A stretch of DNA of 64,000 nt, taken from the NCBI GenBank assembly GCA_030752795.1, contig JASMDM010000010.1, forward strand, positions 1 to 64,000, given 5' to 3'. Every line of letters starts with the position of its first letter. Positions within the stretch are counted from its first letter, which is position 1. The stretch is from SAR202 cluster bacterium. Lineage in GTDB: Bacteria > Chloroflexota > Dehalococcoidia > Lucifugimonadales > UBA1123. The position numbers were made by a program, and so were the translations under genes. This document shows positions 10,901 to 32,236 of this stretch, in pieces. The notes beneath the pieces are model-generated. The model was not told the origin of the DNA. It did not search any database and saw only the letters and a list, made by a program, of their open reading frames with translations.

Positions 10901-10929
10901 TTGACAGGGCACACCGGTCAAATTACAAT
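10901..10929 (+). promoter_or_regulatory. Sigma70-type promoter (TTGACA-17-TACAAT)
   Basis: Exact spacing read from sequence; ~40 nt upstream of the ATG at 10971. Confidence 0.75.
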
Positions 10930-10970
10930 GCGGTGTACGATCATCCGACTGTGCGAAGGAGTGGCGGCGA

Positions 10971-11600
10971 ATGGAAAACACCCACGTAGACATCTATTTC
11001 GACTACGCTTGACCCTGGGTCTACAATGCAGCCGTGTGGCTGGATAGAGTTCAGAAGGCCTCCCCGGGGACGCTGGACATCACCTGGAAGAATTTCTCTT
11101 TGGAGCAGGTGAACAGCAAAGAGGGGCCGGAGTGGAAGGTCTGGGAGGAGAAGGGTCTCGACGAGGCGAGGGCGCTTCTGGCGTCGGTCGCCGGCGAGGC
11201 TGCGAAGCGACAAGGCGGCGAGGCATTCGATCGATTCCACCTGGCGTTGCTGACGGCGCGCCACGGCGGCGGTCGCGTCGCCCTGAACGAGGTTGACTCG
11301 TTGGTCAAGGTCGCCGAAGACGCAGGCCTTGACGCCGCGCAGTTCCGAAAGGACCTTGACGACCCCGGACTCGTCAAGATCGTCGCGGACGATCACGAGA
11401 ATTCGACCGGAAATCTCGGGGCGTTCGGGACCCCGACATTCGTTTTCGACAACGGACAGTCGGCGTACGTCAAAACGTTCATCCCGCCGGAGGATGAGTC
11501 ATTGGAAGCTTTCGAAAACTTCCTCGGATTGTTCTCGCAGCGATCCTACATCGGCGAGGTCAAGCGCCCGCAGCCCCCGTGGCCAAAGGGCGCGGTCTAA
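10971..11600 (+). CDS. DsbA/FrnE-family thiol oxidoreductase, probable selenoprotein (TGA 11010..11012 = Sec)
   Basis: AAGGAG SD then MENTHVDIYFDYA[TGA]PWVYNAAVWLDRV...; TGA replaces the catalytic Cys of (C)PWx; same frame continues to a canonical cis-Pro segment GAFGTPTFVF. Confidence 0.82.
11026..11045 (+). promoter_or_regulatory. Candidate bacterial SECIS hairpin
   Basis: CAGCC-GTGT-GGCTG 5-bp stem, extended by two A-T pairs across a G.G mismatch; loop begins 22 nt after TGA with G first. Confidence 0.6.
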
Positions 11601-11844
11601 ACCGCCAAGGACATCGACCGGGCGACTCGAAGGGATGCCCCGCCGGTTCGCCCGGTACCCACAACCTACCAGCGCCACGAACCCCGTTTATCATCTTCAG
11701 AAAGGCGCTGATGATCCGTCACCATAGCAAAGGCTCCAATCGCAGGATACGCGTGACCCAGTTGCGCGGCTATCTATATTTGCGGAGATTTGTGGCGGAT
11801 ATTGTCCGCGTATCGAAATCTCGCCCAGCCTGCCTCTGCACCTC

Positions 11845-12561
11845 GTGACCGCGTCTTCGTCGTCCCTGGGCCTCGACGAGCTTCAACGATCTCTCGGCGT
11901 GACGTTCGATGACCCGGGTTTGCTTGAGCTCGCCCTCGTACACAGCTCGTACGTCGCCGAATACCCGGACGCCCATCCCGAGTCGAATGAGCGCCTGGAG
12001 TACCTCGGCGACGCCCTGGTCGGCTTGGTCGTGGCGCACGAGTTGTACCAGCGCTTCCCCGACAACCCGGAGGGGCGCCTCACTCAGATGCGAGCGGCTT
12101 TAGTGAGCAAAGAAGCACTCGCGCGGGTCGCCGAATCCTTGGACCTCGGCGCGTCACTCATCGTTGGCAAGGGCGAAGCCGGAACCGGCGGCGCGGAACG
12201 TGAGTCGAACCTGGCGGACGCTTTCGAGGCCGTCGTGGGCGCGGTTCTGATCGACCAAGGCTACGACGTTGCTCGAGAGTTCACTCTGCGCGCGCTGGCG
12301 GACTCGATACGGGCCGTGTCGGAACAGGACGGCCCTCCACGGCATCCGAAGTCGCTTCTGCACGAAGTGGCGATGTCCCGAGGGTTCACCCCGCCGTCAT
12401 ACCGCGTCATCTCGACCGAGGGTGAGGATCACCTGCCTCGATTCACGTGCGAGGTCGTGGTCAACGGCGAGCGCATGGGAACGGGCGCCGGCCGACGCAA
12501 AGCCCACGCCGAGCGCGAAGCCGCCGCCGAGGCGCTCGAGACGCTGGGCCACGAGATTTGA
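11845..12561 (+). CDS. rnc: Ribonuclease III
   Basis: NERLEYLGDALVG signature and C-terminal dsRBD. Confidence 0.96.
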   Translation: MTASSSSLGLDELQRSLGVTFDDPGLLELALVHSSYVAEYPDAHPESNERLEYLGDALVGLVVAHELYQRFPDNPEGRLTQMRAALVSKEALARVAESLDLGASLIVGKGEAGTGGAERESNLADAFEAVVGAVLIDQGYDVAREFTLRALADSIRAVSEQDGPPRHPKSLLHEVAMSRGFTPPSYRVISTEGEDHLPRFTCEVVVNGERMGTGAGRRKAHAEREAAAEALETLGHEI

Positions 12562-16220: not shown

Positions 16221-16988
16221 TTATTTGCCGCGGAATACGGGCGTCCGCTTCTCCGCGAAAGCCGCCAAACCTTCCTGAGCATCCTCGGTCCGCTGGAGCC
16301 GGCGGTTGACGATTCCGGCCAGCCTGACGCGGTCTTCCAGGCGCATGCTCAACCCGCGAACCGCAACTTCCTTGATCGCGCGCATGGCCAGTGGAGCGTT
16401 GTTGAGCAGCTTCTGCACCACCTCGTCCGTGGCGGACTCAAGCTCGTCGTGAGGCACGACTTTGTTGACCATCCCCAGTTCGAGCGCTCGTTCGGCGTTG
16501 ATGAAATCGCCCGTGAACAGAAACTCGAACGCGTAGTTCAGCGGGACACGATGGGCGAGCATGCACGGCCCGCTAACGGAACCGATGCCTCGTTTGGCCT
16601 GCGGCCAGCCGAATTGCGCCTGGTCCGAGGCGATGCGGATGTCCGACGCCAAAGCGATGCCGCCGCCTTGCGCGAGGCACAGCCCGTTGATCGAGGCGAT
16701 GATGGGTTTGAACACCTGCGTCTGGTACACGTACAGGTCCTCGGTTGAGATCTCGTCGGAATATAGGTCGTCGCCCCGACCTGACATGGCAACCAGATCG
16801 TGCCCGACAGAGAATGCCCGGCCATTGCCCGTGATAACCGCGAGCCAAATGTCTGGGTTTTCGTTCACGTCGTGAATCGCGACCCAGAGCTCGTCGCGCA
16901 TAGCGACGTCGATGGCGTTCAGCTTGTCGGGCCGGTTAAGCGTGATGTATCCGACCCTGTTCCGTACTTCGTATTCTACCGTCGACAT
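16221..16988 (-). CDS. Enoyl-CoA hydratase/isomerase family protein
   Basis: VGYITLNRPDKLNAID, crotonase fold motifs. Confidence 0.92.
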   Translation of the reverse strand: MSTVEYEVRNRVGYITLNRPDKLNAIDVAMRDELWVAIHDVNENPDIWLAVITGNGRAFSVGHDLVAMSGRGDDLYSDEISTEDLYVYQTQVFKPIIASINGLCLAQGGGIALASDIRIASDQAQFGWPQAKRGIGSVSGPCMLAHRVPLNYAFEFLFTGDFINAERALELGMVNKVVPHDELESATDEVVQKLLNNAPLAMRAIKEVAVRGLSMRLEDRVRLAGIVNRRLQRTEDAQEGLAAFAEKRTPVFRGK

Positions 16989-31049: not shown

Positions 31050-31550
31050 TTACTCGAGCTCGATCAGACCGCTTCTGCCGCCTGACTTTCGCACCAGGCG
31101 GACGGCTTCGATCCGCATGCCGCGATCGACGGCCTTGCACATGTCGTAGATGGTCAACGCCGCGACGCTGACGGCGGTCATCGCTTCCATTTCGACGCCG
31201 GTCTTCGCGGTGGTGTGAGCCGTGGCGGTGATGTCGACCGAGCTCCGACTCGTGTCCAGTTCGAAGTCGACGACCACGCTGGTCAGCGGCAGCGGATGGC
31301 AGAGCGGTATGAGGTCGGAGGTGCGCTTGGCGCCCATGATTCCCGCCAACCGGGCCACGCCCAGGACATCGCCCTTCTCGAAGCCATTGGACTCGATCAG
31401 CGCCAGGGTCTCAGGCTGCATCGAGATCGCGCCGCGGGCGATGGCCTCACGATCGGTCTCGAGTTTCTCGCCGACGTCGACCATTCGGGCTTTGCCACTC
31501 TCGTCGACGTGTGTGAGTGTCTGGCGTTCCTCGTTGCTACTATCTGCCAT
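31050..31550 (-). CDS. moaC: Cyclic pyranopterin monophosphate synthase
   Basis: [55 protein letters not shown]. Confidence 0.97.
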
Positions 31551-31619
31551 GAATGGGTCGTCCTTGTTCGGATGCGATCGAGTGCTCATCTCTGGGCTGC
31601 CGTCGCTCTCGAGCCGCGG

Positions 31620-32153
31620 TCACAACAACCGCGATTCCGGCGCCAACGTGCTGTTCTCGTAGCCAGTGTCGAGCGCCAAATCGTCACCGTGGGCAGCAGC
31701 GACAGCCAGCTTATCGGCTCGCTCGTTGCCTTCGTTGCCCGCGTGGCCCTTTACCCACTTGGTCTCGACGTCGTGGCGGGCTAGTTGGTTGAGCAATTCG
31801 TCCCAGAGGTCCGGGTTGAGCGCATTTTCGTTCTTGCCGCGCTTCCAACCCCTGGACTTCCATCGCTTCGCCCACCCCTGGTTGATTGCATCGACGACAT
31901 ATTTCGAGTCGCTGTACAGGGTCACGTCGCAGCGATCCTTGAGCGCCTTGAGCCCTTCGATCACAGCCAACAACTCCATGCGGTTGTTGGTCGTGCGTCT
32001 GTAGCCGCCGCTGAGGTCCTTGGTGTGGTCGCCGTAGATCAGATATGTGCCGTACCCGCCAGGTCCGGGGTTTCCCGTGCACGCGCCATCCGTGTAAATG
32101 GTTACTTCAGCGATAGTTTCGCGCTCCTCTTCGACCGAATCGTCGATCAACAT
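31620..32153 (-). CDS. rnhA: Ribonuclease HI
   Basis: VTIYTDGACTGNPGPGGYG, NNRMELLAVI, VKGHAGNEGNERAD. Confidence 0.97.
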   Translation of the reverse strand: MLIDDSVEEERETIAEVTIYTDGACTGNPGPGGYGTYLIYGDHTKDLSGGYRRTTNNRMELLAVIEGLKALKDRCDVTLYSDSKYVVDAINQGWAKRWKSRGWKRGKNENALNPDLWDELLNQLARHDVETKWVKGHAGNEGNERADKLAVAAAHGDDLALDTGYENSTLAPESRLL

Positions 32154-32236
32154 AGTATACCAGGCGCAGTCTCACCTCCGGCATCATTCGACCCACGGAA
32201 TGTCGGAAAACGAACGTCAGGTCGAGCCTCGCTCTA

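Follow-up and report, generated by a model that had tools for sequence, protein, structure and literature searches.

The window, a 64,000-nucleotide stretch of one contig from a SAR202 cluster bacterium, carries on its forward strand a gene (10971–11600) predicted to encode a selenoprotein with selenocysteine (Sec) at its active site, a reading to which we assign a probability of about 0.96. The frame runs from ATG 10971 to a TAA at 11598–11600 (209 aa plus stop) and has a single in-frame TGA, at codon 14 (11010–11012). The predicted protein, MENTHVDIYFDYA-U-PWVYNAAVWLDRV, has a DSBA-like thioredoxin fold, Sec14 in the motif UPWV, and the cis-Pro motif region FGTPTF (11424–11441), in which F152, G153, P155 and T156 are invariant.

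The gene is preceded by a Shine-Dalgarno sequence, AAGGAG (10957–10962), and a sigma-70-type promoter-like site, TTGACA-17-TACAAT (10901–10929), the latter a consensus match only (11 of 12 positions). Both hexamers and the Shine-Dalgarno sequence are kept in Dehalococcoidia bacterium UBA2160, the nearest named relative (86% identical) and the sole close relative from a genome contig scan. Across the frame, with the TGA codon set aside, comparison with UBA2160 gives dS of 1.29 and dN/dS of 0.058. The standard ORF listing contains only GTG 11034–11600 (188 aa), a start that sits inside the loop of the hairpin described below and loses both strand 1 of the fold and the active site. The first-pass annotation had described the full frame through FGTPTF, the expression signals and the shortened ORF, and all three agree with the present reading.

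The gene for RNase III (rnc, 11845–12561, with Pfam RNase III and dsrm domains) lies about 245 bases downstream on the same strand. It directly follows the selenoprotein gene, in the same orientation, in 18 of the 20 relatives examined as well as in UBA2160 and the window, and in several relatives the two overlap or are spaced by a few bases. The arrangement is seen in the window (10971–12561) and at loci L063–L078, L081 and L082, and this adjacency helps to identify orthologs.

The in-frame TGA and its downstream hairpin

TGA occupies this codon in all eight sampled family genomes. Within a class sample of 295 genomes a homolog is present in 33, three of which were left out of the alignment; the aligned homologs have TGA exactly at the column in 24 genomes and TGC in six. 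Two genomes outside the class also have TGA at the column, TGC is found there in seven homologs, and Cys is the alternative in every aligned non-TGA homolog, which bears out the earlier suggestion that TGA stands at the catalytic Cys position. The occurrence of the identical TGA in many independent genomes excludes a sequencing error for practical purposes. At least four Sec/Cys changes are needed on a 40-member tree (without an outgroup root), in which the Cys forms sit within groups of Sec forms. Two Cys forms (L055 and L056) belong to genomes G058 and G105, both of which retain SelA and tRNA-Sec, so that Sec and Cys were exchanged there without loss of the Sec pathway. A TAG flagged in the G058 gene is its terminal stop; the active-site codon of that gene is TGC.

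The UGA is followed on the same strand by a bacterial SECIS-type hairpin (11026–11045), CAGCC-GUGU-GGCUG at its center (11029–11042). Its core stem pairs 11029–11033 with 11038–11042 around the loop GUGU (11034–11037), and outer pairs join 11026–11027 to 11044–11045. The first loop base, a G, is the 22nd base downstream of UGA, in keeping with bacterial SECIS elements, in which the loop lies ~16–37 nt past the UGA and has G among its first two bases. The stem, its two-pair extension, the loop position and the leading G are all where the first-pass annotation had placed them.

Folding of the window hairpin as a single sequence gives an unremarkable energy (z = -0.69), and it is the comparative evidence, not single-sequence thermodynamics, that marks the hairpin as more than chance; the folding check proposed at first pass is uninformative on the single sequence, and the support comes from comparative pairing and silent sites. 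All four core pairs are formed in 19 of 25 TGA homologs versus one of seven Cys homologs, the remaining six TGA homologs being without one or more of these pairs in this register. When synonymous codons are resampled, a mean of 4.2 homologs and a maximum of 11 (2000 trials) have all core pairs, versus the 19 observed. Counted over all 25 TGA homologs, 89 of the 100 possible core pairs are formed, and sliding the partners by 1–3 bases lowers this to at most 69 of 100. A G is present in the first two loop bases of 22 of the 25, and the loop starts about 21–22 nt after UGA.

Silent changes, in which the gene is otherwise rich, nearly stop around and after the UGA. Among eight family genomes, the stretch from +4 to +11 has six conserved degenerate codons, of which five show no nucleotide variation, versus 13 of 97 elsewhere (p = 0.0005), and AATGCAGCCGTGTGGCTG is identical in all eight. 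A search of viral contigs with the SECIS DNA pattern gave no match. On this comparative evidence the predicted hairpin is a real SECIS-type element with the bacterial layout.

Selenocysteine pathway and alternative readings of the UGA

The source assembly is a metagenome-assembled genome (MAG) of 3.5 Mb in 116 contigs, 91% complete with 5.6% estimated contamination, and it contains a complete bacterial selenocysteine pathway. SelA (545 bits), SelB with its C-terminal region, SelD (366 bits) and tRNA-Sec (71.9 bits; ARAGORN anticodon tca, i.e. UCA) are all present, which answers the first-pass call for selA, selB, selC and selD. The selA, selC and selD genes are on contig C44 and selB is on C67, with the window on C10. 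SelD is the classical Sec-containing form, so that selD (L025, G000:C44:28477–29397, minus strand) is itself a selenoprotein gene, reading SCAGUAAK through an in-frame TGA. Among the class sample SelA is found in 23 of 24 TGA genomes versus four of nine others (Fisher p = 0.003, uncorrected for shared ancestry), and the lone TGA genome without SelA is 71% complete and does carry tRNA-Sec.

A whole-genome search for the DSBA family returned the window gene, with one TGA inside, and a second gene on contig C56 with TGA at the same Cys. This second DsbA-family selenoprotein candidate (L001 1462–2103; G000:C56:5868–6509) has the motif YYDYIUPWCYIG, and hence UPWC, and is followed by a hairpin of eight pairs, the GAA loop of which opens with the 22nd base downstream of UGA; by its motif the candidate fits the UxxC entry of earlier surveys. 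Two weak candidates emerged when the window was scanned for other genes interrupted by TGA, although the scan is crude, since its thresholds missed the known gene too. The stronger candidate (31050–32171, minus strand) encodes an RNase H and a MoaC domain in a single frame, but its TGA falls between the domains and these are probably two adjacent genes.

Two readings of the TGA would dispense with selenocysteine. The TGA could be a true stop or a miscalled TGC or TGT, the protein being dead or made from GTG 11034; the start chosen by ORF callers and the origin of the window in a MAG are consistent with this, but the presence of this TGA in some 30 other genomes, strong purifying selection downstream of it, a strand-helix unit of the fold that spans it and the conserved SECIS make such a pseudogene or error very improbable. 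Just as improbable is reassignment or readthrough of UGA to give a different residue, such as Trp, or Cys by way of a variant tRNA, with no SECIS involved. Some bacteria do recode UGA to other residues, but here every aligned non-TGA homolog has Cys at the column, no component of the Sec pathway is missing, conservation of a hairpin at SECIS distance is seen in the TGA but not the Cys forms, and TGA elsewhere acts as an ordinary stop, as where it separates RNase H from MoaC in the window. Insertion of selenocysteine at codon 14 is the reading that we retain.

Protein fold, proposed chemistry and known relatives

The read-through protein matches Pfam PF01323 (DSBA) with 66.2 bits (cut-off 25.6). 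An AlphaFold model with Cys replacing Sec (pLDDT 92.7, pTM 0.90) has strand 1 at residues 4–10 and places residue 14 at the N-terminal end of the first helix (15–30), so that the strand-helix unit spans the TGA position. As the protein starts with MENTHVDIYFDYA and strand 1 is already formed by residues 4–10, there is no room for a signal peptide. The window motif is DYAUPWV and that of the family D[YF]x(U/C)P[WFYH][VA], a small correction to the first-pass active-site motif, in which the placing of Sec at the Cys position was right. The residue following U-P-x in the TGA family is V or A and never C. The family has no conserved Cys at any other position either, and the window protein is entirely free of cysteine.

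The best sequence and fold match is DR2335 of Deinococcus radiodurans (PDB 7dk9, 7dka; TM 0.80), which has the aligned motif CPYA and likewise no CxxC, but differs in having Cys instead of Sec and is 26% identical; a literature search for structure 7DK9 found no paper. Next is Rv2466c, and GST-kappa and HCCA isomerase are also among the fold matches. The mycothiol-dependent DsbA-Mrx1 group of Rv2466c and NCgl2478, thiol-disulfide reductases with a monothiol mode, is alike in fold (TM about 0.7) but has CPWC or CPFC where the window protein has UPWV, and the score against PF22234 (Rv2466c-like mycothiol nitroreductase) is below cut-off (20.4 versus 27 bits). D. radiodurans FrnE (5cnw) shares the DSBA-like fold but is a weaker match, and its CxxC active site is absent from the Cys-free window protein; of the initial label "DsbA/FrnE-like" the DsbA part therefore stands and the FrnE part applies only loosely. 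The CPHC motif and signal peptide of periplasmic DsbA oxidases are likewise absent. NF041057 (Rcas_1661 thioredoxin-like (seleno)lipoprotein) scores 19.9 bits against a cut-off of 190, and no dedicated NCBIfam model is above cut-off for the window protein.

Directed by the hairpin at 11026–11045, SelB and Sec-tRNA(UCA) would insert Sec at the UGA to give the active site U-P-W-V in a cytoplasmic selenoprotein with a DsbA-like thioredoxin fold. Its selenol could attack a mixed disulfide or similar electrophile, forming a selenenyl-sulfide intermediate on Sec14 that an external thiol would reset. The sequence excludes an intrachain dithiol cycle, as the protein contains no Cys, and with neither a second Cys nor a second Sec a single-selenol (monothiol) mode is the most likely. 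NCgl2478 C24S, in which the second Cys is gone, no longer acts on insulin yet retains its reductase activity toward mixed disulfides (PMC8280269); it mimics a lone nucleophile, which makes a monothiol-like selenol cycle the best guess. By this analogy we regard monothiol-type redox chemistry of the lone selenol as somewhat favored. As to the external thiol, a search of six genomes gave no sign of GCS2-type glutathione synthesis, and the matches to MshC, which may represent cysteinyl-tRNA synthetase, all score under the cut-off of the family.

The protein could instead be a selenoprotein that is no thiol-redox enzyme, its lone selenol binding a metal or metalloid or serving a transferase-like site as in GST-kappa and HCCA isomerase folds. 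The absence of a resolving Cys and the presence of those two folds among the matches speak for this, but Sec at a helix N-terminus together with the cis-Pro motif is redox geometry, DR2335 and Rv2466c are the best fold matches, and the nucleophile is kept in Cys homologs; we consider such a role unlikely, though a good deal less so than either of the readings without selenocysteine. Under the redox reading, a broader proposal, which we hold tentatively and at slightly less than even odds, is that a Cys-free thioredoxin-fold enzyme with one selenol as its only redox group was ancestral in Dehalococcoidia, has been Cys-replaced several times, and uses a partner thiol in bacteria without GCS2-type glutathione synthesis.

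DsbA-like selenoproteins were listed as UxxC in a 2005 marine metagenome survey (PMC1088965). The 2008 GOS survey has three DsbA selenoprotein families, of which the third, 'DsbA 3', is given in its Table 2 as PF01323 and UxxV, with five sequences from three samples (PMC2398784). This bacterial, marine metagenome entry shares domain and motif with the window protein, but host and gene context, available for the window gene, are absent from that listing. A 2026 review distinguishes DsbA-like form 1 (UxxC) from form 2 (DxxUP, PF01323, representative MDP6049977.1; PMC13188914), and the window protein, with DYAUP, matches form 2 in domain and motif. Form 2 is labelled as crotonase/enoyl-CoA hydratase family in the table of that review, whereas the window gene has no crotonase fusion; a crotonase-like ORF, recognized by eye, is located at 16221–16988, about 4.6 kb away. 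By domain and motif the window gene fits the known UxxV/DxxUP entry. A literature search found no paper placing a UxxV DsbA-like selenoprotein in Dehalococcoidia. The family is already listed in marine surveys, and the present analysis adds an account of its conservation, its RNA signal and the absence of Cys.

Implications for the family

An apparently broken gene would, on this reading, be an intact selenoprotein gene whose stop codon is read as selenocysteine. Because gene callers remove the active site, annotations hide a conserved selenoprotein, and one that belongs to a widespread, mostly uncultured bacterial class. With Sec forms in some related genomes and Cys forms in others, the family provides material for comparison, and the protein is a natural case for asking whether one selenol, unaided by a resolving cysteine, is sufficient for thiol-disulfide chemistry.
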